Source of the DNA: Ottowia thiooxydans DSM 14619
Lineage (GTDB): Bacteria; Pseudomonadota; Gammaproteobacteria; Burkholderiales; Burkholderiaceae_C
NCBI RefSeq assembly: GCF_000422885.1
Contig: NZ_AUGX01000048.1
Span: forward strand, 1-34,208
Direction: 5' to 3'
DNA: 34,208 nt
Part shown: positions 10,288 to 31,093 of the stretch, piece after piece
Position numbering within the stretch: position 1 is the stretch's first letter
Layout of the letters: each line of letters starts with the position of its first letter
Notes under the pieces: generated by a model
What the model was told of the DNA's origin: nothing
Seen by the model: the letters and a program-made list of their open reading frames with translations, nothing else
Database searches by the model: none
Position numbers and translations under genes: made by a program

Positions 10288-10638
10288 ATGAGCGCTATTG
10301 CCTTAGCCTTTGACCAACTGCCCCGTACGCCTGCTTCAGATGTCAAGAAGCTGGGATGGCGCGGTGTCATGCGCGCGGTAGGGCGTGAGGGCAAGGTATT
10401 GGTGACCAACCATGATCGGCCAGAAGCCGTGATCTTGTCCCCGGATGAATATGAGCGCCTGACACGCGCTGCAGCCGCTACCGAAGCACGGCAGGAAGAC
10501 GCCATCGACGCCCTGCGCCGCCGCTTTGACGACCGCCTGGCTACCTTGCAGCAAGCAGACGCCGGTCAGCGCTTGCGGGAGGTGTTTGCACAAGGCCCTG
10601 AACTGCAAGGCAAGGTACTCGCTGGCGGTAGTCACTAA
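10288..10638 (+). CDS. Phd/YefM-family antitoxin
   Basis: A 116-aa small protein with the Phd/YefM fold in its first 60 residues: DVKKLGWRGVMRAVGREGKV, then LVTNHDRPEAVILSPDEYERL, the typical beta-strand and helix order of prevent-host-death antitoxins. The N-terminal part should dimerise and bind the operator. The charged helical C-terminus (about 65-116) should wrap and block the toxin. It is longer than classic Phd (about 73-85 aa), mainly in this toxin-binding part. The toxin gene follows after 21 bases. TAAGGATCCTGCC in front of the ATG gives a usable ribosome-binding site. The partner is a zeta-like kinase rather than the usual Doc, YoeB or RelE toxin. Confidence 0.82.
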   Translation: MSAIALAFDQLPRTPASDVKKLGWRGVMRAVGREGKVLVTNHDRPEAVILSPDEYERLTRAAAATEARQEDAIDALRRRFDDRLATLQQADAGQRLREVFAQGPELQGKVLAGGSH

Positions 10639-10659
10639 AAATCTGCTCTCGCTCTAGTT

Positions 10660-11295
10660 GTGCCCGCACCGCGTCCTGTTCTTTACGTCCTGGCTGGGGT
10701 CAACGGCGCAGGTAAAAGCAGTATTGGCGGGCATTTGCTCACACGTGCTGGTTTGACTTGGTTCAATCCGGACACGTTCGCACGCGAACTCCTTGCAGCC
10801 ATCCATTGCGATCAAACCACCGCCAACGCCGCCGCCTGGACTGAAGGACAGCGCCGGCTGGATGAAGCGCTAGCCAAAGGGCAAAGCTTCGCTTTTGAAA
10901 CCACGCTGGGCGGACACAGCGTAGCCAAGCGATTGAAGGGTGCCGGACAAACGCACGACGTATTGGTCTGGTTTTGCGGCCTGGCTTCGCCCGAACTGCA
11001 TCTGGCCCGTGTTCACGCACGCGTGGCGGCCGGTGGCCACGACATTCCTGAAGCCAAAATCCGCGAGCGCTGGGTAGCTTCCATTGCCAACCTCATCGCC
11101 CTCACGCCTCACTTGGCCGAGATACGCCTATTCGACAACAGCGCCACCATCGCACCCGGCCAGCCCATACCGGATCCACTACCGGTAGCCGTGATCCAGC
11201 AGGGCCGATTGACTTGGCCCTCTGTCAAAGACACTGATGTGCTGGCCCGCACGCCGGACTGGGCCAAGCCGGTGCTTGAAAGTGTGATCCATTAA
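10660..11295 (+). CDS. zeta-toxin-like P-loop kinase, probable toxin
   Basis: A 211-aa P-loop protein of the zeta-toxin/AAA type. Zeta toxins phosphorylate UDP-N-acetylglucosamine and so block cell-wall synthesis; that activity is family knowledge and not proven here. Walker A is GVNGAGKSS (residues 13-21). It is followed by FNPDTFAREL, which fits the zeta substrate-site Asp region, and FETTLGG, which matches the strand after the helical insert in zeta-like kinases; RVHARVAAGGHDIPE resembles the lid with basic residues. The start is GTG at 10660, 21 bases after the antitoxin stop, which suits a co-transcribed pair. No membrane segment or signal is seen. The gene seems intact. Confidence 0.82.
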   Translation: MPAPRPVLYVLAGVNGAGKSSIGGHLLTRAGLTWFNPDTFARELLAAIHCDQTTANAAAWTEGQRRLDEALAKGQSFAFETTLGGHSVAKRLKGAGQTHDVLVWFCGLASPELHLARVHARVAAGGHDIPEAKIRERWVASIANLIALTPHLAEIRLFDNSATIAPGQPIPDPLPVAVIQQGRLTWPSVKDTDVLARTPDWAKPVLESVIH

Positions 11296-11497: not shown

Positions 11498-12466
11498 ATG
11501 ATTTCAAAGTTGGTTACCCACGGAGTTGCAGGTTTTCTACTCGCCAGTTCCACCATGGCGCTTGCTCAGGACTACCCCAACCGCCCCATCCGAATGGTGG
11601 TGCCCTTCGCCGCTGGGGGTGGTGCTGACATCGTCGCACGCGCAGTTGCACAGCCCCTTTCCAAACGCCTGGGTCAGCCCATCGTGGTCGACAACAAGCC
11701 AGGTGGCGGCGCCACACTGGGAGCTGATCTGGTGGCCAAGTCCCCGGCCGATGGATACACGATCCTCTACACCACGCCTGGCCCGCAGATGACCAACCCC
11801 TATCTGATGAGCAAGCTGCCCTATGACCCTGCGCGCGATCTCGTGCCGGTGGCGTCAGTGGCCATTGTTCCCAATGTGCTGGTCGTGAGCAAAAACGTAC
11901 CTGCCCGCACCGTCAAAGAGTTCATCCAGTACGCCAAAACCAACCCAGGCAAGGTCAATTACGCGAGCGCGGGTATTGGGGCGAGCAGCCATCTGGCGGG
12001 AGAGCTCTTCAAGCAATCCGCCGGTATTCATATGGTTCACATCCCCTACAGAGGTACCGGCCCGGCGCTGGCGGATCTGCTTTCAGGAGAGGTTCAAGCA
12101 GCCATCGACAGCATCGCCGTTTACAAGCAGCACATCGACTCCGGGGCGCTCAAGGCCCTGGGTGTTGCCACGCGCCAGCGTTCGAAAGCACTGCCCAATG
12201 TGCCCACCATCGCCGATGACCTCAAAGGCTTTGATGCAGCGCCGGTGAACTACATCTCGGTCCCCGCCAAAACCCCGCAAGCGATCGTAGACCGCCTGAA
12301 CACTGAAATCAACGCAGTGCTGCAATCAGCGGAATTGCAGGAACAACTCGCCACGCATGGTGTTATTCCTCAAGGGGGAACGCAGGCTGAGATGGTTGCG
12401 CTCGTGCGCAGCGAAGCCGCCAAATGGAAAAAGGTGATTGAAACTTCTGGTGCCAAGCTGGACTAA
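11498..12466 (+). CDS. Bug-family periplasmic solute-binding protein (orphan)
   Basis: A 322-aa TctC/Bug receptor with a standard Sec signal peptide (MISKLVTHGVAGFLLASSTM, cleavage after ALA near residue 23). The mature part begins YPNRPIRMVVPFAAGGGAD, then KPGGGATLGA, ADGYTILY and the YRGTGPALADLLSGEVQ segment. AAAAGGAGAT upstream supports the start. It is a lone gene: no enzyme or regulator is next to it on the same strand, and a terminator follows. Its C-terminal KWKKVIETSGAKLD is nearly the same as KWKKVIETSGAQLD of the Bug protein at 30006-31010, so these two may be closer relatives than the other three. The upstream gap 11296-11497 shows no clear promoter. The last codons and stop are duplicated in the DNA (see 12451-12482). 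Confidence 0.9.
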   Translation: MISKLVTHGVAGFLLASSTMALAQDYPNRPIRMVVPFAAGGGADIVARAVAQPLSKRLGQPIVVDNKPGGGATLGADLVAKSPADGYTILYTTPGPQMTNPYLMSKLPYDPARDLVPVASVAIVPNVLVVSKNVPARTVKEFIQYAKTNPGKVNYASAGIGASSHLAGELFKQSAGIHMVHIPYRGTGPALADLLSGEVQAAIDSIAVYKQHIDSGALKALGVATRQRSKALPNVPTIADDLKGFDAAPVNYISVPAKTPQAIVDRLNTEINAVLQSAELQEQLATHGVIPQGGTQAEMVALVRSEAAKWKKVIETSGAKLD

Positions 12467-12586: not shown

Positions 12587-13135
12587 TCAGGCCGCCAGCG
12601 CCTCACGCTCAGCTTGGCGTGCTTGCCACCAGTTGCGCAGCACGCCATTGGAGCCGCCCACGGCAATGATCTCGCGCAGCACATCGGGCAGCGGCTCATA
12701 TTGAGCCGTGACGCCCGATGTGAGGTTGGTGAAGCGGCCTGTCAGGAAATCCATTTCGGTGCGATCGCCGTCATTCACAAGCTGGGTGATTCCCGTGCAG
12801 TCGGTCAGGAACAGCAACCCTGCGCAGACAGCGCCTCGATAAGCCAGAAAAGGCATGGATTCACTCAACACGCCCACGCCCAGCGCGCGCAGGCCAATGT
12901 AGCCCTGTATCTTGGCCTTGCCTTTGCCAAAGTTCTGGCCCGCAACCACCAGATCACCAGGTTTGACTGCCTTGGAAAAACCGGGCCGAGTCAGCTCCAA
13001 GGTTCGAGGGGCCAGTACAGCGGGATCAAAAATTCGGTCAGAAGCGAAGTGCGCATCGATCAGGCCGTCGTTGTGGCGCAGATCGTCACCGAACTTATGG
13101 CAAACGCCACTAAGCTTCCATTGGATATCAGACAT
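12587..13135 (-). CDS. LeuD/aconitase-family small subunit with an altered catalytic loop
   Basis: A 182-aa homologue of the small (swivel) subunit of isopropylmalate dehydratase-type enzymes. The fold is recognisable from CHKFGDDLRHNDGLIDAHF, PGFSKAVKPGDLVVAGQNFG and the later strands (LAYRGAVCAGLLFLTD). In known family members the text after NFG is C/xGSSREH/QA; the first Ser supplies the catalytic base in aconitase and the Arg binds substrate. Here residues 71-79 read KGKAKIQGY, so Ser, Ser, Arg, Glu and His are all gone. The length is between archaeal-type (about 165) and bacterial LeuD (about 200). AGGAG precedes the ATG. It is the last gene of the LacI-controlled operon, 45 bases after its large subunit. 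Leucine synthesis is unlikely: no leuA or leuB is near. Confidence 0.8.
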   Translation of the reverse strand: MSDIQWKLSGVCHKFGDDLRHNDGLIDAHFASDRIFDPAVLAPRTLELTRPGFSKAVKPGDLVVAGQNFGKGKAKIQGYIGLRALGVGVLSESMPFLAYRGAVCAGLLFLTDCTGITQLVNDGDRTEMDFLTGRFTNLTSGVTAQYEPLPDVLREIIAVGGSNGVLRNWWQARQAEREALAA

Positions 13136-13180
13136 ATGCTTTCTCCTGTGAGATGGGTTGATGGCGACCGCTCAGGCCAT

Positions 13181-14455
13181 TCACGCCGCTATGGCACGGG
13201 CATCTGCGATGTGCCCCACCAATGCAGAGGCGGCCACCGTGGCCGGGCTGCCCAAATAGATCTCTGAAGTCTTGTCCCCCATGCGGCCAGCGGTATTGAC
13301 CGCAGCAGTAGAGATGGACACTTCCCCAGCCCCCAGCGAGCCGGATTTCGCACCCGCGCACGGTCCGCAGCCGGGCGGCAAGATGATGCAGCCAGCTTCT
13401 TGAAAGGCAGATATGAGGCCCTCTTCCGACAGGCGCTTGGCAGTGGCCACCGTGCCAGGCACGATGGTCATACGGGTACCGGGCGCAATGCGCTTGCCAC
13501 GCAAGATGTTGGCAGCCACCAGCATGTCTTCATACATGCCCGAACCGCAGGAGCCAATGAAGGCGTGGTTAATGGTCCGCCCGAGCACGCTGGAGAGATC
13601 CACTGAACGTTCCGGACCACCCGGCAGCGCGACTTGAGGCTCCAGACTGGAAAGATCGAATTCGCCTTCGGCTTCGTACTCAGCATCATCGTCGCTGTAA
13701 ACGCCTGTGAACGGACGCCCCGCGGCCTTCGATTGGCGTTCCACAATCTCGCGTGTAGGCGGGATGAACACATGCGCCACACCCACTTCGGTGGCGGTGT
13801 TGATCAGCGCCACACGGGCTGCGAGGTCGAACTGATCCAGGTTGCCGGCCAGTTCAATCACACGATAGGCAGGGCTCACACCACCATAAGCGCGGTCGGC
13901 CAGATTGCGCGCCAGGCAGTAGCCCACATCGCGGCCGTAGACACCGGCTTTCAGCTGGCCGGTGAACTTGATGCGAATCGTGCTGGGCACCTTGATCCAC
14001 AGCTCGCCCATGGCAATGGCATTGGCAATCTCGGTTCCCACGCGCAGCGCTACCGCACCCACTGCACCGAAGTTGGTGCAGTGCATGTCGTTGGCGTAGA
14101 TAAACATGCCAGGGCCCACCAAACCCATCTCGATTGGAAAGATGTGCCCGTGCCCGCCTTGGCCCACGTCAAAGAACTTGTCCACCTTCCAGGCTTTGGC
14201 TGCCTCGCGGATGCGCAGGCCACGTTGGGCGGCTTTGGGGGTGGAATAAACGACCTCGTGGTCCGTCACAAACACCACCTTGGAAGGATCGTCCAGCTCA
14301 GTGATGCCGATCTCATCCAGCTCGATCTTGGTGGATTCGACCTGCCCATCGTGTAGGAACATCAGGTCCGCGCGTGGGTAGACAAATTCGCCCGGCTTGA
14401 CCGAAGGCAGGCCGGCGGCGCGTGCGGTGATTTTTTCGAATGCGGTCATGCCCAT
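13181..14455 (-). CDS. aconitase-superfamily hydratase large subunit (LeuC/DmdA-like)
   Basis: A 424-aa large subunit of the isopropylmalate/homoaconitate/dimethylmalate dehydratase group, which adds or removes water at a [4Fe-4S] cluster. The cluster cysteines are present: C303 in IGSCGSG, and C363 and C366 in PPGCGPCAG. The active-site Asp-His pair is kept in NDMHCTNFGAVGA (123-125), where the family usually has DSHT. The segment that normally reads NRNFxGR reads AVNTAGR (385-391), so one substrate-binding Arg is missing while the last is kept. The length matches archaeal-type or DmdA-type proteins (about 420), not bacterial LeuC (about 470). Only one base separates the preceding aldolase stop from this start, so translation is coupled. 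ATG at 14449 is an alternative start. Confidence 0.85.
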   Translation of the reverse strand: MGMTAFEKITARAAGLPSVKPGEFVYPRADLMFLHDGQVESTKIELDEIGITELDDPSKVVFVTDHEVVYSTPKAAQRGLRIREAAKAWKVDKFFDVGQGGHGHIFPIEMGLVGPGMFIYANDMHCTNFGAVGAVALRVGTEIANAIAMGELWIKVPSTIRIKFTGQLKAGVYGRDVGYCLARNLADRAYGGVSPAYRVIELAGNLDQFDLAARVALINTATEVGVAHVFIPPTREIVERQSKAAGRPFTGVYSDDDAEYEAEGEFDLSSLEPQVALPGGPERSVDLSSVLGRTINHAFIGSCGSGMYEDMLVAANILRGKRIAPGTRMTIVPGTVATAKRLSEEGLISAFQEAGCIILPPGCGPCAGAKSGSLGAGEVSISTAAVNTAGRMGDKTSEIYLGSPATVAASALVGHIADARAIAA

Positions 14456-14456
14456 G

Positions 14457-15224
14457 TCAGTTCACCTCCGCAACGGGTTCAGCGGCTGCGCGTGCAGCCA
14501 AATCCTTGGCCTTGGCTTCCAGCACCTTTTTGGCACCCGCCGTGACCAGCTTGGCCGAACTGATTTCCACCACAATGTCTTCGCGCATCAACTTGCCAGC
14601 GGCATGCACGCGGTCAAACAGATACTGACGCGCTTTGAGCACTTCCGGATGATCCGGCTCGCCGGGATAGCCCAAACCTTGCGAGAAATCATTCATGCCG
14701 ATGTAGAGGAAATCGATACCCGGCACAGCCATGATTTCATCGATCTTGTCCATGCCCTCGCGGTCTTCGATCATCACACCCACCATCATCTGCTTGTTCG
14801 ATTCGGCGTAGTACTCCCGCCCGTCTTCCTCCCACAGCTGAAAACCTGCACCACGGGCGCTGCCCAGGGAGCGGTCGCCAATGGGGCCAAAGTAAGCAGC
14901 ATCGGCCACTTGTTTCGCCTGCTGGGCGTTGGAGATATGCGGCGCAATGATGCCCTTCACACCCCGGTCTATGTACTGCAGGATGGTGCTGGAATTGATG
15001 TTGGGAATGCGCGCGATGGGTGTCATGCCATAGAGCTCGGCGGCGCGGCAGGTGTTTTCCACGTCTTCGAGCGAGAACAGGCCGTGCTCGCCATCGATCT
15101 GGACATAGTCCATGCCCAACGTCCCCAGAATTTCCACCATCTGCGGCGCCGGCCATGACAGCACAAAACCGTAAACCTTATAGCGGTTGATCGCCGCCTG
15201 CTTGACTTTATTGACTCTGATCAT
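14457..15224 (-). CDS. HpcH/HpaI-family class II aldolase
   Basis: A 255-aa cytoplasmic aldolase of the HpcH/HpaI family. Known members split or join 4-hydroxy-2-oxo acids, with pyruvate as one partner, using a divalent metal. The catalytic set is present: H47 in QIDGEHGLFS, R72 in ARIP, and metal ligands E153 in VMIEDREG and D179 in IGMNDFSQGLG. The C-terminal tail is Ala/Lys rich. AAGGAA in front of the ATG at 15224 supports the start. It lies 46 bases after the Bug gene and one base before the aconitase-type large subunit, so all belong to one operon. The likely job is to cleave a branched or multi-carboxylic hydroxy-oxo acid made or used by the hydratase. The precise substrate is unknown. 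Confidence 0.88.
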   Translation of the reverse strand: MIRVNKVKQAAINRYKVYGFVLSWPAPQMVEILGTLGMDYVQIDGEHGLFSLEDVENTCRAAELYGMTPIARIPNINSSTILQYIDRGVKGIIAPHISNAQQAKQVADAAYFGPIGDRSLGSARGAGFQLWEEDGREYYAESNKQMMVGVMIEDREGMDKIDEIMAVPGIDFLYIGMNDFSQGLGYPGEPDHPEVLKARQYLFDRVHAAGKLMREDIVVEISSAKLVTAGAKKVLEAKAKDLAARAAAEPVAEVN

Positions 15225-15270
15225 CGTGGTTCCTTAGGAGATAAAGCAGAAGATGTGGACTTCAGCTGCC

Positions 15271-16248
15271 TCACTGCACCTTGATGTTGAGAGCCGAAAT
15301 CAACTTGCCCCACTTGGTCGATTCCGCGCGAATGAAGGTGTTGAATTCGTCGGGCGTAGAGACCTTCACCACCAAACCAGTGCTGGTAGTGATCTGCTCG
15401 CGCACCTCTTTGGCATCCAACACCTTGGCCACGTCCTGCGCCATCTTGTTGATCACATCGCGCGGAGTCCCAGCAGGAGCCACAATGCCGTTCCATCCCT
15501 GGATCACGACATCGTTGAAGGCTGGGCCCGCTTCCTGGATGGTGGGAACATCAGGGAAAGCAGGCAGGCGCTGCGTGCCGCCCACGGCAATCAGGCGCAA
15601 GCGGCCAGAACGAGCATGGCCGGCTACGGCGGGAATACCCACGAACATCACCTGAGTCTGCCCCGCCATGACATCCTGCAGCGCAGGTGCATCACCCTTG
15701 TTGGGAATGTGGTGCATGCTGAAGCCGCCCCGGTCAGCCAACAGCTCAGCCGCCAAATGACCAATATTGCCGATGCCTGCGGAGCTATAGTTCATCTCTC
15801 CCTTGAGGGATTTGGCATAGGCCACCAATTCCTTGACGTTGTGCACGGGCAGCTTGGGGTTGACCACCAGTGCGAAAGGCACGCTGCCGATCTGCGCTAC
15901 GGGCACCAAATCCTGCAGGGGATTGAACGGCATCTTGTAGAGAAAGGGATTGATGGTCATGTTGCTGGGCACGCCCAAGCCCACTGTGTAGCCATCTGCC
16001 GGCGCTGTAGCCACGGCTTGCATGCCAATGTTGCCGTTGGCACCCGCCTTGTTCTCCACCACCATCTGCTCGCCCCACACGTCTGATAGCTTGAGCGCGA
16101 TCTGGCGTGCCGTCGTGTCGGGGCTGGAACCAGCCGGTTGCGCCACGATCAGCTTGACCGGCTTGTTTGGCCACGAATTGGCAAATGCGGGGCTGCTCAC
16201 GCAAGCGGCCGCGAGCAAAGCGGCGCAAAGTCGTGCCAAAGGTTTCAT
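15271..16248 (-). CDS. Bug-family periplasmic solute-binding protein of the LacI-controlled operon
   Basis: A 325-aa TctC/Bug receptor with a clear Sec signal peptide (MKPLARLCAALLAAACVSSP, cleavage after AFA). The start of the mature protein, WPNKPVKLIVAQPAGSSPD, departs a little from the family: the usual PFxxGGxxD is AQPAGSSPD, which may affect the ligand pocket. NKAGANGNIGM and ADGYTVGLG follow as expected. AAGGAG at 16255-16260, six bases from the ATG, gives a strong ribosome-binding site. It is the first gene of an operon with the HpaI aldolase and the aconitase-type subunits, and its promoter carries two LacI-type operators. It probably captures the acid that the downstream enzymes break down. 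Confidence 0.92.
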   Translation of the reverse strand: MKPLARLCAALLAAACVSSPAFANSWPNKPVKLIVAQPAGSSPDTTARQIALKLSDVWGEQMVVENKAGANGNIGMQAVATAPADGYTVGLGVPSNMTINPFLYKMPFNPLQDLVPVAQIGSVPFALVVNPKLPVHNVKELVAYAKSLKGEMNYSSAGIGNIGHLAAELLADRGGFSMHHIPNKGDAPALQDVMAGQTQVMFVGIPAVAGHARSGRLRLIAVGGTQRLPAFPDVPTIQEAGPAFNDVVIQGWNGIVAPAGTPRDVINKMAQDVAKVLDAKEVREQITTSTGLVVKVSTPDEFNTFIRAESTKWGKLISALNIKVQ

Positions 16249-16399: not shown

Positions 16400-17425
16400 T
16401 CAGGTGCTTTCGCGCACGTTCAAGGTAAAGCCCAGGTCGATGCTGCGGGGGGCCGGTACGGGCGTACCTGATTCCAGGCTTTCGAGCAGCAACAAACCTG
16501 CTTGCCGCCCCAACTCATACCTCGGGATGAGCAGCGAGGTAATCCCCGGGTCGGTATGGGCTGCCAATTCGCTGTCATCGTAGGCTGCGACTGCAATGCG
16601 GCCAGGCACGCTCCAGCCTTGGCGCCGGCACTCGATCAAAGCGCCAGCGGCCAGGTCGTCTCCAACGAAAAATCCAGCGTCCGCCGGTTGTGCGAGCCCC
16701 ATCAAGTGCCGCAAGGCCGTAGCAGCGCCCGCGAAGCCCGGCTCAGCGGCCACTTCCAATTCCGGCGCAAACGCCAGGCCCGCATCGGCAAGCGCTTGCC
16801 GGTAGCCACTGCGGCGAATCCAGGTGCGCTCGTTGCCGGGGCCACGGTAGATGAAAGCAATGCGCTTGCGCCCACTCGCGGCGAGGTGCGCAGTCATGGC
16901 GCGCGCCGCCTCATGGTTCGAATAGCTCACCACATGGCCCAAGGGCTCTGCGATCAAGTCACCAGTCTCGATCAGCGGCACGCCGTAGCGGGGAAGTTCG
17001 TCGCGGGTGCGGGCCGTGTGCACCGTGTTGTGCAGCAAGATCGCGCAAGGCCGCAGCGGCAGGAAAGCGCGGATGGTGCGCTCCTCGCCTTCGGGTGTCT
17101 CCTCGGTAGTGCCCAGCACCAAATGCAGGCCGCGCGGCGAGATCACATCTGAAATGCCCTGGATCATGTGCGCCAGGTAGCTGTGCATGATGCTTGGAAT
17201 AAGCACCAGCACCAGGTTCGTGCGGCGGGACTTGAGACTGCCCGCGACGCTGTCAAAAACGTAACCGGTTTGCGCAATCGCCTGCTCAATGCGCTCTCGC
17301 GTGGCAGGCGCCACAGAGCGAGGCGCCCGCAGCGCCCGCGACACCGTGATGGTGGACACGCCAGCGATTCGGGCCACGTCGGCCATGGTCACATGCGGCA
17401 AGCTGGCGGGAGGCGAGAGGGACAT
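16400..17425 (-). CDS. LacI-family transcriptional repressor
   Basis: A 341-aa LacI/GalR-type regulator. The N-terminal helix-turn-helix reads TMADVARIAGVSTITVSRAL, followed by the hinge-helix region (GYVFDSVAGSLKSRRTNLV), whose leucine or equivalent inserts in the central CG step of operators. The rest is the periplasmic-binding-protein-like sensor domain. I chose the ATG at 17425 (MSLSPPASLPHVTMADVARI); the longer open frame to 17584 has no family match, and no strong ribosome-binding site is seen at either place. The gene lies upstream of the Bug/HpaI/LeuCD-like operon on the same strand, separated by a 151-base gap that carries two palindromic operators. The effector is probably the imported acid or a breakdown product. 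Confidence 0.93.
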   Translation of the reverse strand: MSLSPPASLPHVTMADVARIAGVSTITVSRALRAPRSVAPATRERIEQAIAQTGYVFDSVAGSLKSRRTNLVLVLIPSIMHSYLAHMIQGISDVISPRGLHLVLGTTEETPEGEERTIRAFLPLRPCAILLHNTVHTARTRDELPRYGVPLIETGDLIAEPLGHVVSYSNHEAARAMTAHLAASGRKRIAFIYRGPGNERTWIRRSGYRQALADAGLAFAPELEVAAEPGFAGAATALRHLMGLAQPADAGFFVGDDLAAGALIECRRQGWSVPGRIAVAAYDDSELAAHTDPGITSLLIPRYELGRQAGLLLLESLESGTPVPAPRSIDLGFTLNVREST

Positions 17426-17582
17426 GCGAAAAAAAGAAAAACCTGGTTGGAGGCGCAACACCCAGCGCGCCTCTTGCGCGCCAGGGGCTGAAGCGCAGAC
17501 TGTAACTGCAACGCCTGGGAAGCCCCTCAGAACCTCATGCGGATGCAAACCGTTCTGCTCGGAATTAGTGCGCAGATCAGGC

Positions 17583-17615
17583 AAAAGAAGCGAGCCCGCA
17601 ATAAGGGGCTCGCTT
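17583..17615 (-). terminator. probable terminator of the AAA+ ATPase transcript
   Basis: AAGCGAGCCC (17588-17597) and GGGCTCGCTT (17606-17615) make a perfect 10-bp stem; on the minus strand CTTTTG follows. It lies in the 296-base gap between the AAA+ gene and lacI. A second, weaker hairpin sits nearer to the AAA+ stop: AGGGCA/TGCCCT at 17696-17711, followed by GCTGATTTTCT. The rest of the gap (17426-17582) shows no operator resembling those in front of the Bug gene. Confidence 0.5.
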
Positions 17616-26982: not shown

Positions 26983-27894
26983 TTACTGAAACTCCGAAGT
27001 ACTTCGCGACACGGCCTGGCATGCCTGGACGAAAGAATCCAGCAATGGCGGGGGGGTGCGGTCATTCATGCTGACTGCAGAAATACTGCGGTAAGTAGAG
27101 TGTCCGGCAATACGCCGAAAAGTGAGGTTCGTCATGTTGGCCTGGCCAAGACTGGAGTGCGACAGCACACCAATGCCCAAGCCCGTGCGAATCATGGAAA
27201 GCAGCGTGACTGCAAGGCCAACCTCATAGGCAGGCCTGAAATCAGGCAGTACGGCAGACATCTGTCCATCCACCGTTTTTCTGAGCGTGCTTGGACTTCT
27301 GATCTGGATATGGGGATACTCGCGTAGATCACCCCAGTTGACTTCAGCCTTGCAGGCGAGAGGGTGATCTTCCGGCATCACCACGACGAAGTAGTCAAAG
27401 AACAGATCAATCTGATTGAGCTCCTGAGTGAGGCCTTCGGTGGGTATCAGCGCGACATCCACCTTTCCTTTGCGAAGGAGGTCGATGCATACATCCGCTA
27501 ACTCGTCGTAGAACTTGATTTCTACTTCGGGGTGCGATGTCAGGTAGTGGGCAATCACTTGTGGCGCAAAACCTGCGGCAATGGACGGGCTCGCGGCCAC
27601 CACGAGTTTCCCCTTCTTCGCGTGAACAAACTCTCTGATGTTCAGATGCACTTGCTGGATCTTGTCTCGCAGTGGAAGACACATGTCCTGAAACTCGCGG
27701 CCAACGGCGGTCAACGACACATTTCGCGTATGGCGATCGAAGAGTTTGGCGCCAATGGAGTCCTCCAGCTTTCGAATATTCATGCTCAAAGCTGGTTGAG
27801 AGATATGACTCATCTCTGCAGCCTTGCTGAAGCTCAGTGTTTGCGCAACTGCCAGAAATAGCTCTATTTGTTTGAAGGTGGCATTGCTGCTCAT
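26983..27894 (-). CDS. LysR-family transcriptional regulator of the CoA-enzyme cluster
   Basis: A 303-aa LysR regulator. The N-terminal helix-turn-helix spans FKQIELFLAVAQTLSFSKAA and HISQPALSMNIRKLED; the rest is a two-lobed effector domain. The ATG at 27894 (MSSNATFKQI) was chosen from the family N-terminus; the frame extends to 27990 without homology. It lies downstream of the Bug/CoA-transferase/hydratase genes on the same strand, 186 bases after the hydratase, behind a strong stem-loop. It is therefore a likely cluster regulator that may have its own promoter in that gap. The effector may be the imported acid or its CoA ester; this is inference from position. Confidence 0.9.
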   Translation of the reverse strand: MSSNATFKQIELFLAVAQTLSFSKAAEMSHISQPALSMNIRKLEDSIGAKLFDRHTRNVSLTAVGREFQDMCLPLRDKIQQVHLNIREFVHAKKGKLVVAASPSIAAGFAPQVIAHYLTSHPEVEIKFYDELADVCIDLLRKGKVDVALIPTEGLTQELNQIDLFFDYFVVVMPEDHPLACKAEVNWGDLREYPHIQIRSPSTLRKTVDGQMSAVLPDFRPAYEVGLAVTLLSMIRTGLGIGVLSHSSLGQANMTNLTFRRIAGHSTYRSISAVSMNDRTPPPLLDSFVQACQAVSRSTSEFQ

Positions 27895-28040
27895 CGTGTG
27901 CCCGCCATTTGCTTGCTCGAGACCATCGTACCTTGCATGTGGTTGAGGCGCCTCTCTCATCAGCCCTGAGAATGAAATTTCGAGCCTCACGAAAGGTCTT
28001 CGGCCTGGGTCGGCAACGAGAGCCTCCAGGAATTGCTAGG

Positions 28041-28074
28041 TCATTTGAAGCGGTTTCCCCAACGCTTCAAATGA
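28041..28074. terminator. perfect 12-bp stem-loop after the hydratase gene
   Basis: TCATTTGAAGCG (28041-28052) and CGCTTCAAATGA (28063-28074) pair fully around a 10-base loop, six bases past the hydratase stop. No T-run follows on the minus strand. It may end or slow transcription, or protect the 3' end of the message, before the LysR gene. The rest of the gap 27895-28080 shows no clear promoter. Confidence 0.5.
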
Positions 28075-28080
28075 GCGTTC

Positions 28081-28836
28081 TCATGCTTGCTGGGTCTTTT
28101 CGAGTCTGCACAGCGCAGCCTGGTCTACATCCGCGTGTGCCAGCAGGTGTGTATGGGCTGATTGCAAAGCATTGATGTTTCGTTTGCTGATCTGGAGCGC
28201 CAATTTCGACTTGGCAGCGATCGCTTGCGCCAAGCCAAGCGCGTGTGAGGTCACCTGCTCCGCTGTGTGAACAAAATCCACCAAGCCCCACTGCAGCGCG
28301 GTATCTGCGGAAATCTTCTCTCCCAGTATGACCAGCCTCTTCGTGTATTGCGGGCCGATGGCGGAGTTCAGGCGAGGAATGGTGTTCCATGCATAGATAG
28401 AGTCCATATCCACTTCTGGTACGGAGATGAACGCGTTGTCTGCCATAACCCTGAAATCACAACATAGGGCAATAGACAGGCCACCACCAATAGCGAAGCC
28501 TTCAATCGCCGCAATCGTGATCTGCGGCAACTCTGCCCAAGCCCTTGCGATCTCGGTGCGCAATACCAGGCCGAGCCTGTACTCGAAAGCCGATGCGCTG
28601 GTAAACACACAGGGGTCTTTAAGATCTGCGCCGGCCGAGAAACAGGTGTCTCCGCCCGTCAAAACGGCCACAGAGACCTGTGGATTCACTCGGAGCTTTC
28701 TTGCGACCAAGTCAAGCTCATTGAGTAAAGCACTGCTCAGCGCGTTTTTCTTGCTTTCGCGTAGAAACCGCACTAGTGCGACCCGACCATCCTGTTGCAC
28801 GGATATGAACTCACCCGAAAAAAACTCAACCTGCAT
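28081..28836 (-). CDS. enoyl-CoA hydratase/isomerase-family protein
   Basis: A 251-aa crotonase-fold protein acting on acyl-CoA thioesters. The oxyanion hole is formed by FSAGADL (66-72) and GFAIGGGLSIAL (113-124). The first catalytic Glu of hydratases is kept (E141 in SVPEVDM). The place of the second Glu seems to be Arg (in YTKRLVILGEKISADTA), so it may not be a plain hydratase; isomerase, hydrolase, lyase or decarboxylase activity is possible in this superfamily. Its ATG overlaps the stop of the CoA-transferase gene by one base (TAATG), so translation is coupled. The pair likely activates an acid to its CoA ester and then changes it. The gene is less GC-rich than recQ or pckG. Confidence 0.86.
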   Translation of the reverse strand: MQVEFFSGEFISVQQDGRVALVRFLRESKKNALSSALLNELDLVARKLRVNPQVSVAVLTGGDTCFSAGADLKDPCVFTSASAFEYRLGLVLRTEIARAWAELPQITIAAIEGFAIGGGLSIALCCDFRVMADNAFISVPEVDMDSIYAWNTIPRLNSAIGPQYTKRLVILGEKISADTALQWGLVDFVHTAEQVTSHALGLAQAIAAKSKLALQISKRNINALQSAHTHLLAHADVDQAALCRLEKTQQA

Positions 28837-29978
28837 TACGAATCCATTTCTGCAAGGATTTCATTCCGGTCCGCGTCGATGTTCGGAGGAAGTCTGGATA
28901 TTTTCCCCGGAGTTCTCGATAGTTTGATCGGTATGCCAAGCAACTTCTGATCTTGGACGGAGACCACCATTTGACGGTACTCTGCATGGGGATGTGAAAG
29001 AGCTTGCCCCACGCTCAGTACGACGCCGGCAGGAATATCTGCCTGATTAAGTCTGAGTGCAAGTTCTTCCGATTTCTCTTGTTTCAGTTTTTGATTAACT
29101 ATTTCGATCAGGCAATCTCTGTTTTTTGCTCGGTTTTCCATGCTGGTGAATCTTTCATCTTCCAGCAAGTGTGGTACATCCAGAATGTCACAGAGCTTTA
29201 TGAAATTTCGGTCAGTGGAGACCGCGAGGTAGATGGGGTCATCTGCCGTGTCGTACACCCCCATGGGTGTGAAGGTAGGGTGTTGATTGCCACTTCGTTC
29301 CGTTTCAGCATTGGAATAGAGCCAGTTGGCAGCGTGGGGATGCAACAGCGGAAAGGCGCAATCGTAAAGACTCATGTCGAGGTATTGGCCAATACCGTCG
29401 CGCTCCAATGCCTTGAGTGCGAGCAGCACTCCGATGGCGGCATGCAAGCCAGTTGACACGTCCACAACCGACAGTCCGAAGCGCATGGGACCGGAGCGTT
29501 GTTCACCATTCGCAGAAATGACACCCGTCCATGCACCGGCCGAGCCGTCATATCCGGGCGTTCCACCCAAAGGACCATCTGCACCGAAGCCTGATATGGC
29601 CACCATGATCAATCGCGGTTGCTGCTCCTTCAACTCATGAAAGCTCAGACCCCACCGCTCCATCGTTCCAGGCTTGAAGTTATGCACGAGCACATCCGCA
29701 TTTCGGATAAGCCTGCGTATTTCCAGTTTTCCCTCTTCGCTGCTGAGATCGATGACTATGCTTCGCTTGTTCCGGTTCAAACCGTAGAACATCGAGGACG
29801 AGCCATCGTGAAATGGTGGCCCCGACCCTCGACTCTGGTCACCTGAAGGTGGCTCCACTTTGATGACGTCGGCACCGAAATCACCAAGAATCTGTGTACA
29901 CAACGGTCCTGCAAGAACACGTGTCAGGTCTACGACCTTCAAACCCTGAAGTGGCGGGCTATTATTTTCTGTAGGCAT
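28836..29978 (-). CDS. CaiB/BaiF family III CoA-transferase
   Basis: A 380-aa cytoplasmic CoA-transferase of family III, which moves CoA from one acyl-CoA to a free carboxylic acid through an aspartyl intermediate. The catalytic Asp is D173 in GLSVVDVSTGLHAAIG. Other landmarks are LKVVDLTRVLAGP (13-25), LGDFGADVIKVEPP (31-44), NRNKRSIVIDL and GFGADGPLGGTPGYD. The length is normal. It lies 27 bases after the Bug gene and overlaps the hydratase gene by one base, so it is the middle gene of an operon. It probably activates the acid delivered through the Bug receptor. Donor and acceptor are unknown. Confidence 0.9.
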   Translation of the reverse strand: MPTENNSPPLQGLKVVDLTRVLAGPLCTQILGDFGADVIKVEPPSGDQSRGSGPPFHDGSSSMFYGLNRNKRSIVIDLSSEEGKLEIRRLIRNADVLVHNFKPGTMERWGLSFHELKEQQPRLIMVAISGFGADGPLGGTPGYDGSAGAWTGVISANGEQRSGPMRFGLSVVDVSTGLHAAIGVLLALKALERDGIGQYLDMSLYDCAFPLLHPHAANWLYSNAETERSGNQHPTFTPMGVYDTADDPIYLAVSTDRNFIKLCDILDVPHLLEDERFTSMENRAKNRDCLIEIVNQKLKQEKSEELALRLNQADIPAGVVLSVGQALSHPHAEYRQMVVSVQDQKLLGIPIKLSRTPGKISRLPPNIDADRNEILAEMDS

Positions 29979-30005
29979 GTCGAGCGCGGTGTTTGGTTAC
30001 GTCAA

Positions 30006-31010
30006 TCAATCAAGCTGGGCACCGGACGTTTCTATTACTTTTTTCCATTTTTTATTTTCTTGTTCAATGAATTTCCCGAATTCCACGCTGCTGATACTGG
30101 AAGGTTCACCGCCTTGTTCTTGAATTTTCTCCACGACGTCCTTGCTGGACATGACCTTCTTCAGGAGCAATTCGATTTGCAGTTTGACCTCGGGTGGAGT
30201 TTGCGCTGGAGCAAACAATCCAAACCACGACATAACCTCATACCCAGGTAGACCGGCCTCGGCGATGCTTGGCGTCTCCGGCAGGGCAGCAGAGCGGCTT
30301 CCACTGGTGACACCCAACGCACGGAGTTTTCCTGCCTTCACATGTTGAATGACAGACGGCAGGTTGTCGAATGTGATCTGAACCTGACCTCCAATCAGAT
30401 CAGAGACCACGGCAGAGCTACCTTTGTAGGGAATATGTTTGATATCAATTTGGGCCATTGACTTAAACAATTCTCCGGCGAGATGTGTCGAACCGCCTGT
30501 ACCGGCAGATGCAAAATTCAGTGTGCCGGGATGTTTTTTCGCGTAGCCGATGAGCTCAGACACACTCGTGTACGGCTCTTTAGGATTGCTCACCAAGAGA
30601 TTGGGAACGGCAGCAATTTTGGCGATCGGTGCGAAATCCGTATTTGGGTTATAGGTAAGATTTTTATAAAGCCAATAATTGATGGCTTGGGTGCCGACGG
30701 TTCCAAGAAATAGGGTATATCCGTCCGCCATGGACTTGGCGGCAATGGCTGCGCCTACGTTTCCACCCGCCCCAGCCTTATTCTGCACAATCACGCTTTG
30801 ACCTGAAACAGTAGCGAGTTGATTGGCGACGATGCGCGCCAATATGTCAGTGGTTCCGCCGGGAGGATAGGGAACAATTATGTTAATTGTTCTTTTTGGA
30901 TAGACCTCGGTTTTCGCTTGCGCCAAACTGTGGTTGGAATACATGGCATGCGCTGCAAACAAAGAAATGCTTGAGAAAATAATTGCTTGCCTACGCATTT
31001 TTAAAAACAT
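30006..31010 (-). CDS. Bug-family periplasmic solute-binding protein of the CoA-enzyme operon
   Basis: A TctC/Bug receptor of about 334 aa. From the ATG at 31010 the N-terminus is basic then hydrophobic (MFLKMRRQAIIFSSISLFAA), with signal cleavage likely near SLAQA; the mature part starts YPKRTINIIVPYPPGGTTD. NKAGAGGNVGA, ADGYTLFLG and YKGSSAVVSDLIGGQVQ follow. Starts at 31079 or 30998 are also possible; none has a good ribosome-binding site. By hand count the line 30061-30120 is 47% GC against 63% for 8221-8280 in recQ, so the gene has foreign composition. Its C-terminus is almost identical to that of the orphan Bug protein at 11498-12466. It is the first gene of the operon with the CoA-transferase and hydratase. 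Confidence 0.9.
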   Translation of the reverse strand: MFLKMRRQAIIFSSISLFAAHAMYSNHSLAQAKTEVYPKRTINIIVPYPPGGTTDILARIVANQLATVSGQSVIVQNKAGAGGNVGAAIAAKSMADGYTLFLGTVGTQAINYWLYKNLTYNPNTDFAPIAKIAAVPNLLVSNPKEPYTSVSELIGYAKKHPGTLNFASAGTGGSTHLAGELFKSMAQIDIKHIPYKGSSAVVSDLIGGQVQITFDNLPSVIQHVKAGKLRALGVTSGSRSAALPETPSIAEAGLPGYEVMSWFGLFAPAQTPPEVKLQIELLLKKVMSSKDVVEKIQEQGGEPSSISSVEFGKFIEQENKKWKKVIETSGAQLD

Positions 31011-31075
31011 GGTGTTCACTGATTTGTTTCCGGCTATCTGATTCTTTTGGATGGTATTTTTTTCATATTTATAAG

Positions 31076-31093
31076 TCAATTTTTAAAAATTGA
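31076..31093. promoter_or_regulatory. perfect 18-bp palindrome upstream of the Bug/CoA-transferase operon
   Basis: TCAATTTTTAAAAATTGA is fully self-complementary and lies 66 bases upstream of the chosen Bug start. It sits in very AT-rich DNA (about 31040-31125), where the operon promoter must be. It contains a T-N11-A spacing as LysR sites do, but the AT-richness makes chance matches likely. The LysR at 26983-27894 is the candidate binder. Confidence 0.45.

Follow-up and report, generated by a model that had tools for sequence, protein, structure and literature searches.

A 34,208-nucleotide stretch of the Ottowia thiooxydans DSM 14619 genome (contig NZ_AUGX01000048.1, positions 1 to 34,208; the window) encodes a pair of aconitase-type subunits, one LeuC-like and one LeuD-like, in which a lysine stands at the place of the catalytic serine while the three iron-sulfur cysteines are kept; alignments of the sequences confirm the serine-less loop and the retained cysteines. 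In an open-reading-frame scan of the window the pair closes a four-gene set on the minus strand (12587-16248) in the order Bug/TctC receptor, HpaI aldolase, LeuC-like and LeuD-like subunit. These genes are packed like an operon, with gaps of 46 bp (Bug-HpaI), 1 bp (HpaI-LeuC-like) and 45 bp (LeuC-like-LeuD-like). Relatives with the same lysine recur, for the most part, beside genes for carbon-carbon (C-C) lyases and look like an uncharacterised branch of the aconitase family. Our preferred reading, held at slightly less than even confidence, is that the pair would be a catabolic [4Fe-4S] hydro-lyase with a lysine base, making a 4-hydroxy-2-oxo acid that HpaI cleaves to pyruvate.

Active-site replacements in the two subunits

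The loop NFGCGSSREHA of the solved small subunit 3vba aligns without gaps over NFGKGKAKIQGY of the LeuD-like protein, and the alignments to 1v7l and 2pkp are gapless as well, so that K73, A74 and K75 stand at aconitase Ser642, Ser643 and Arg644 (aconitase numbering, placed on the window proteins by the alignments). Where the family has FGxGSSRE the window reads FGKGKAKIQ, and the GSSREH/Q loop of the isopropylmalate isomerase LeuCD is absent in all three alignments. The original prediction, made from the window's sequence, had named KGKAKIQGY as the replacement of the catalytic GSSRE loop, and the gapless alignments bear this out; no Ser-Arg pair was seen elsewhere in the site in the sequence alignments. 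In the same subunit R34 matches, in the alignment to the homoaconitase small subunit 2pkp, an arginine of the substrate loop.

The small subunit has no match to Pfam Aconitase_C, a domain with 10 other occurrences genome-wide, in frames as long as LeuD in some cases and as aconitase in others. It matches the NCBIfam model LEUD_arch (TIGR02087, 1.7e-24, below the model cut-off) and PDB entry 3vba (1.9e-24); its best NCBIfam score is 86.4 bits against a cut-off of 108.95, and equivalog models lie far under their cut-offs. For the large subunit the best score is 355.3 bits against a cut-off of 385. The LeuC-like, LeuD-like and HpaI proteins all score below the cut-offs of every NCBIfam model that they match, and both Bug proteins of this region match none. 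Both subunit folds are predicted to be normal, with 3vba and 4kp1 as the closest PDB entries: the small-subunit model (predicted local distance difference test, pLDDT, 96) gives template-modelling (TM) scores to the 3vba chains of 0.84-0.86 when normalised to the length of the query and 0.91-0.94 when normalised to that of the target, and the large-subunit model (pLDDT 89.8) gives TM 0.91 to 4kp1.

C303, C363 and C366 of the large subunit fall on the cluster cysteines of aconitase, and the pair D65-H66 on its Asp100-His101, as had been claimed for the three cysteines and the Asp-His pair. D123, H125 and N128 (equivalents of Asp165, His167 and Asn170), N219, E223, N387 and R391 (Arg452) are also kept. 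The equivalent of His147 is best placed at H104, although a profile alignment sets it elsewhere. The stretch AVNTAGR (residues 385-391) does replace NRNFxGR: A385-V386 lie at Asn446-Arg447, and Arg447 is lost while Arg452 is kept. Alanine at 385 is common to the serine-loop catabolic relatives (10/10), so it is nothing special to the window. M124 replaces Ser166, a feature absent from the original prediction. Of the traits of the aconitase superfamily, the pair has the folds of domains 1-3 and of domain 4, as modelled, and the three cysteines, and lacks the Ser642 base. These comparisons support the claim that it is probably a functional [4Fe-4S] protein whose base and pocket differ from the usual ones. 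The HpaI protein, for which a full catalytic set had been claimed, has H47, R72, E153 and D179 aligned with the catalytic residues of YfaU (PDB 2vws alignment).

Lysine for serine is a family trait

A scan of genome contigs with large-subunit patterns gave 57 loci, mostly from Burkholderiales, with some Alphaproteobacteria, one spirochaete and one distant gammaproteobacterial match (loci carry L numbers). Fifty-three yielded a small subunit; L134, L137, L142 and L144, the last a distant relative, gave none and stand outside the loop counts. In these 53, from loci chosen by the large subunit, residues 642-644 read KAH in 26, KPH in 19, NPH in 4, KTH in 2 and KPR in 2, so that the Ser642 position is Lys in 49/53 and Asn in 4/53 and the Arg644 position is His in 51/53. 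One of the locus-picking patterns, DMHC[ST]NF, also selects for M124; in lysine-loop loci found via the small subunit instead, the large subunit reads DMHC in 8/8. Lysine-loop pairs, grouped by that very loop, number 51 without duplicates, and all of them keep the three cysteines, D123, H125, N219, E223, N387 and R391. D65, H66 and H104 are kept in 50/51, each with one gap, and N128 in 49/51; His at the H104 position is also found in 10/10 serine-loop catabolic pairs. At position 34 of the small subunit, 46 of the 51 have Arg and the other 5 Lys. Most loops of the family read G-K-[AP]-H; GKAK, as in the window, is exceptional (0/53 small subunits, 1/51 lysine-loop pairs). The loop's oddity, as originally noted, is thus real but not private to the window: the lysine at Ser642 belongs to the family, and it is the window's KAK that is the exception.

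Among the three close operons L089-L091 the ratio of nonsynonymous to synonymous substitution rates (dN/dS) is 0.04-0.11 for LeuC, LeuD and HpaI, which indicates purifying selection and speaks against decay in these three; the window stands further off, at 65% identity to its closest relative. Together with the lysine in 49/53 relatives, these low ratios suggest that the loop change is more than chance. We consider it very unlikely that the pair is a dead or non-enzymatic paralogue, decaying or regulatory. The losses of Ser642, Ser643, Arg644, Arg447 and Ser166 and the window's K75 and N22, which are unusual in its family, would suit such a paralogue, but the ratios among L089-L091 are low, the cysteines persist in all 51 pairs and the operon is recurrent.

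C-C lyases recur beside the pairs

We built lyase profiles from recurrent neighbours and named them by Pfam. Of 116 stretches scanned, 106 gave a LeuC-LeuD pair and the other 10 are uncounted; six of the 106 pairs were dropped from the neighbour counts owing to identical LeuC (the same contig twice). A C-C lyase lies within 3 kb of 47/51 lysine-loop pairs (RraA 19, BKACE 15, HpaI 6, thiamine pyrophosphate (TPP) enzyme 4, isocitrate-lyase (ICL)-type 2, ICL-type with RraA 1) and on the same strand in 39/51. That the recurrent neighbour families are largely C-C lyases is not built in by selection. The four pairs without a lyase in this range are L074 and L101, both at contig ends, L122 and L141; an HpaI gene ∼8 kb from L141, whose product is only 28% identical, was not counted as linked. 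Bug genes lie within 3 kb of 46/51 pairs; two of the remaining five, L111 and L143, have genes of the ATP-binding cassette (ABC) transport type in their place. An adenylosuccinate-lyase neighbour was rejected as a pathway part and dropped from the counts (representative 730 bits against a purB equivalog cut-off of 446).

The slot between Bug and LeuC-LeuD is taken by HpaI in five loci (the window and L088-L091) and by RraA in 10, and L138 has the order HpaI-LeuC-LeuD-Bug. All six loci found of this clade thus have the HpaI link, with the HpaI proteins of the five relatives 47-59% identical to that of the window. The proposed tie to HpaI and Bug therefore stands for the clade, and a tie to some C-C lyase extends much wider. 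Homologues with the GKGK loop have Bug in every case (13/13) but HpaI in 6/13 only, the others having BKACE on the other strand (6/13) or, at a contig end, no lyase (1/13). Beyond the four operon genes, the six HpaI loci share only the gene clusters of LacI (window, L089-L091) and of an acyl-CoA dehydrogenase (L089-L091, and 8 kb away in L138). The TPP neighbour matches benzoylformate decarboxylase, a 2-oxo-acid enzyme, below the cut-off. In L099, L105, L106 and L110 the pair is followed by the TPP enzyme (benzoylformate-decarboxylase-like in L099), and genes of one amidase cluster flank the two on both sides.

Pairs with other loops have lyases too. An ICL-type lyase accompanies 7/10 serine-loop catabolic pairs, 6/10 pairs with further serine-type loops and 5/5 Asn-loop pairs, one of these also with RraA. 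In the His-loop group C (L155-L163; loop GYGHPHYPAM) an ICL/methylisocitrate-lyase-like gene lies within 3 kb in 5/9 and within the full stretch in 9/9; the four that seemed lyase-free at 3 kb were rejected as such, as all have the ICL-type gene further on. These group C loci have Bug or, in L155, a branched-chain-type ABC transporter, the genes of which lie between the pair and the ICL-type gene. The distant pair of L164 (genome G132), with the loop NFGGGGKTIEGP (GGGGKTIEGP), has HpaI and Bug in front and may be a separate instance of this association.

Proposed reaction and its rivals

Gene order, family assignments, replaced residues, recurrence, the lyase linkage and purifying selection in close relatives are read from the sequences. 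For the putative cluster, the direction of the reaction, the class of substrate, the part played by the lysine and the pathway we propose the following. Bug would deliver an organic acid, which the pair would hydrate, or isomerise by dehydration and hydration, to a 4-hydroxy-2-oxo acid of the type of 4-hydroxy-2-oxoglutarate or 4-hydroxy-4-methyl-2-oxoglutarate; HpaI would cut this to pyruvate and a second oxo acid or aldehyde, and the LacI-type protein may sense the substrate. K73 would take over as general base from Ser642, with the substrate-binding Arg447 and Ser166 lost, and its amine would serve as acid/base on a carbon acid beside a ketone. In aconitase a serine alkoxide takes the proton from C2 (PMC8184944). 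A lysine may be basic enough here because the proton would lie beside a ketone, and not, weakly acidic, beside a carboxylate as in aconitase. That the non-homologous HpaI and RraA, with the same chemistry, occupy the same slot suggests that the product is a 4-hydroxy-2-oxo acid; 4-hydroxy-4-methyl-2-oxoglutarate/4-carboxy-4-hydroxy-2-oxoadipate aldolase (RraA-like) and HpaI are given as class II pyruvate aldolases of distinct structure, with work on their convergence cited (PMC5065237).

More tentatively, and with some doubt, we suggest that the conserved lysine, acting as acid/base or even forming a Schiff base with a 2-oxo substrate, opened keto-acid substrates to the whole branch, each sub-branch pairing with a different C-C lyase (HpaI, RraA, BKACE or TPP enzyme), so that these operons would be exchangeable uptake-hydratase-lyase cassettes.

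Several points weigh against the lysine-base hydro-lyase that we favour. The window has K75 where 48/51 lysine-loop pairs have His and N22 where 50/51 have Asp, and may therefore be atypical or decaying. Lyase matches number 48 in 292 kb near the lysine-loop pairs and 3 in 550 kb far from them, a contrast that is partly built in, as the families were picked for recurring near pairs. Not one of the 20 group B pairs (loop GMGPKM) has a tested lyase, yet group B nests with the lysine group. The ICL-type lyase near three lysine pairs is on the other strand in two, and BKACE is on the other strand in 6/15 of its cases. The need of BKACE for a beta-keto acid is left unexplained if the pair makes a 4-hydroxy-2-oxo acid by hydration. 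Sugar-acid derivatives are the substrates of the best-matching HpaI homologues of solved structure. Finally, we infer the link of the lysine to keto-acid lyases from few clades, and the substrate and activity are putative. In group B itself (L079-L082, L084-L086, L166-L176, L178 and L179) the loop is one residue shorter, and Bug lies within 3 kb in 18/20.

Could the pair instead act on sugar acids? In this main rival, which we consider unlikely, it would be an aldonate or aldarate dehydratase that turns a vicinal-diol acid into a 2-keto-3-deoxy or 3-keto acid, which HpaI would cleave, in the manner of YfaU or GarL, to pyruvate and an aldehyde. The best PDB matches of HpaI, the 2-keto-3-deoxy sugar aldolase YfaU and a 2-dehydro-3-deoxyglucarate aldolase, favour it. 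So does the LacI regulator 151 bp upstream of Bug, on the same strand as the operon and in the same protein cluster as the LacI adjoining the HpaI operons L089-L091; LacI-type regulators often sense sugars. The loss of Arg447 and Arg644 would suit a less charged substrate, and a keto-acid product would also account for the BKACE and TPP neighbours, BKACE fitting better here than with a 4-hydroxy-2-oxo acid. However, R34 and its conservation as Arg or Lys point to a second carboxylate, and the ligands of Bug and TctC proteins are mostly carboxylates. Moreover, no aldehyde enzyme was recognised beside the six HpaI loci, though most of their flanking genes are unnamed.

An ordinary isomerase or hydratase of the citramalate, dimethylmalate, maleate or citraconate type, with a loop that does no more than retune binding and with another group taking the proton, seems to us more improbable still. 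Most other catalytic residues and both predicted folds are normal, as this would have it, and catabolic relatives with ICL-type lyases fit the known dimethylmalate/methylisocitrate logic. Against it stand the lysine in 49/53 relatives, the HpaI and RraA neighbours, which misfit malate-type products, and a genome that holds 10 other Aconitase_C places; in addition, the serine base is retained even in AcnX, a distant relative (PMC8184944).

Distribution and phylogeny

In the genome survey, whose counts include the window's own genome, some match turned up in 32 of the 200 genomes from the family; most were paralogues with a serine loop or with a differently rewritten one. At order level 28 of 399 genomes matched at 1e-20 (groups A and B together) and at class level 4 of 369, the own genome and three others with serine-type loops; among 60 relatives, 7 matched the large subunit at 1e-60. 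In the genus, the two matching genomes besides the own one have the loops FAHHNHIEV and GTGSSREQ and not the lysine, so the lysine pair is accessory in its genus. Some Burkholderiales genomes carry several such operons, with four loci each in SAGV5 and 67-32. The own genome has a second serine-less pair on contig C3 (366064-367870; L087, L189, L198), with the loop NFAHHNHIEV and an adjoining Bug gene, and G956 (L203) of the same genus has this loop too, also with Bug.

For a quick IQ-TREE phylogeny, LeuC-like rows were thinned at 97% to 91, and three more LeuC-like proteins from the own genome brought the total to 94. Of the serine-less pairs the long single L164 stands apart, and all others are united in a part of 78 rows with a Shimodaira-Hasegawa-like approximate likelihood-ratio test (SH-aLRT) of 99. 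This part holds the lysine group A together with group B (64 rows, SH-aLRT 100) and, besides these, the rows with an Asn loop, group C with its His loop and a single row. As the tree was made from LeuC and the groups were named by the LeuD loop, their agreement is not built in. The HpaI-linked rows (window, L088, L090, L091 and L138) form one branch with SH-aLRT 97; L089, a near copy, was thinned out. Several long branches meet, so the deep order is unsure, and as group B nests with group A, the latter needs two changes on the tree. Some additional loci and the own second pair (L087) are outside the tree and counts and were listed separately.

Comparison with known systems

The pair shares its two subunits, folds, cluster cysteines and Asp-His pairs with the archaeal-type isopropylmalate/citramalate isomerase LeuCD (4kp1/4nqy, 3vba). 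It differs in that SSR is KAK (KAH/KPH in the family), Ser166 is Met and Arg447 is Val/Thr, in its Bug-HpaI context, which is not that of leucine biosynthesis, and in scoring below the cut-offs of the NCBIfam isopropylmalate isomerase models. With the homoaconitase small subunit 2pkp it shares the fold and the arginine aligned with R34, whereas the catalytic loop and gene context differ. DmdAB with dimethylmalate lyase is likewise a catabolic LeuCD-like pair with a C-C lyase, but its partner is of the ICL family, unlike the HpaI of the window and the RraA, BKACE or TPP enzymes of relatives; the NCBIfam small-subunit model that the LeuD-like protein matches is named for the LeuD/DmdB family. 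The window HpaI shares family and aligned catalytic residues with the class II pyruvate aldolases HpaI, YfaU and GarL and falls below all equivalog cut-offs. The AcnX enzymes (cis-3-hydroxyproline and phosphomevalonate dehydratases) are another divergent branch of the superfamily with a changed pocket and function; there the serine base is kept and the cluster-binding sites differ, whereas in the window's family the ligands are kept and the serine is gone (PMC8184944). The same source describes the serine base for aconitase, isopropylmalate isomerase, homoaconitase and AcnX, with Ser70 as the base of AtAcnX, the mutant of which is almost inactive (PMC8184944).

The closest described cases are isopropylmalate isomerase, homoaconitase and AcnX. 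We found no account of the lysine-loop family in the open-licence literature, a coverage that makes the absence weak. A conserved Lys-for-Ser clade with its cluster ligands, beside keto-acid-cutting enzymes, would show a textbook active site rebuilt for other chemistry, and would offer a testable function for proteins annotated as 3-isopropylmalate dehydratase or hypothetical (names among the plasmid matches).

Features and neighbouring genes

The operon and its regulator are listed in Table 1; the operon's Bug protein has the TctC domain.

Table 1. Coordinates in the window of the operon genes, their active-site segments and the adjoining regulator
Feature	Position	Strand	Support
LeuD-like small subunit (swivelling domain), 182 aa	12587-13135	minus	NCBIfam TIGR02087, PDB 3vba, model
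Rewritten active-site loop NFGKGKAKIQGY, LeuD-like residues 68-79	12899-12934	minus	alignments to 3vba, 1v7l, 2pkp
LeuC-like large subunit, 424 aa	13181-14455	minus	Pfam Aconitase 5.3e-57; PDB 4nqy 2.1e-67; model
AVNTAGR, LeuC-like residues 385-391, replacing NRNFxGR	13283-13303	minus	alignments
C363-G-P-C366, LeuC-like, aconitase Cys421/Cys424 equivalents	13358-13369	minus	alignments; 51/51 lysine-loop pairs
C303, LeuC-like, aconitase Cys358 equivalent	13547-13549	minus	alignments; 51/51 lysine-loop pairs
DMHCTN, LeuC-like residues 123-128; M124 at Ser166	14072-14089	minus	alignments
HpaI-type class II aldolase, 255 aa	14457-15224	minus	PF03328 2.3e-27; PDB 2vws 1.6e-30
Bug/TctC periplasmic solute receptor, 325 aa	15271-16248	minus	PF03401 4.7e-66
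LacI-family regulator	16400-17584	minus	Pfam LacI 5.8e-16; start codon uncertain, codon model = 17425

A second Bug/TctC gene (11498-12466, plus strand) is convergent with the LeuD-like gene. Further away, a Bug-linked set on the minus strand (26983-31079) comprises a LysR regulator, an enoyl-CoA hydratase, a family III CoA-transferase and a further Bug gene, and a Phd/YefM-type antitoxin gene followed by one for a zeta-toxin-like P-loop protein (10288-11295, plus strand) forms a candidate toxin-antitoxin pair.

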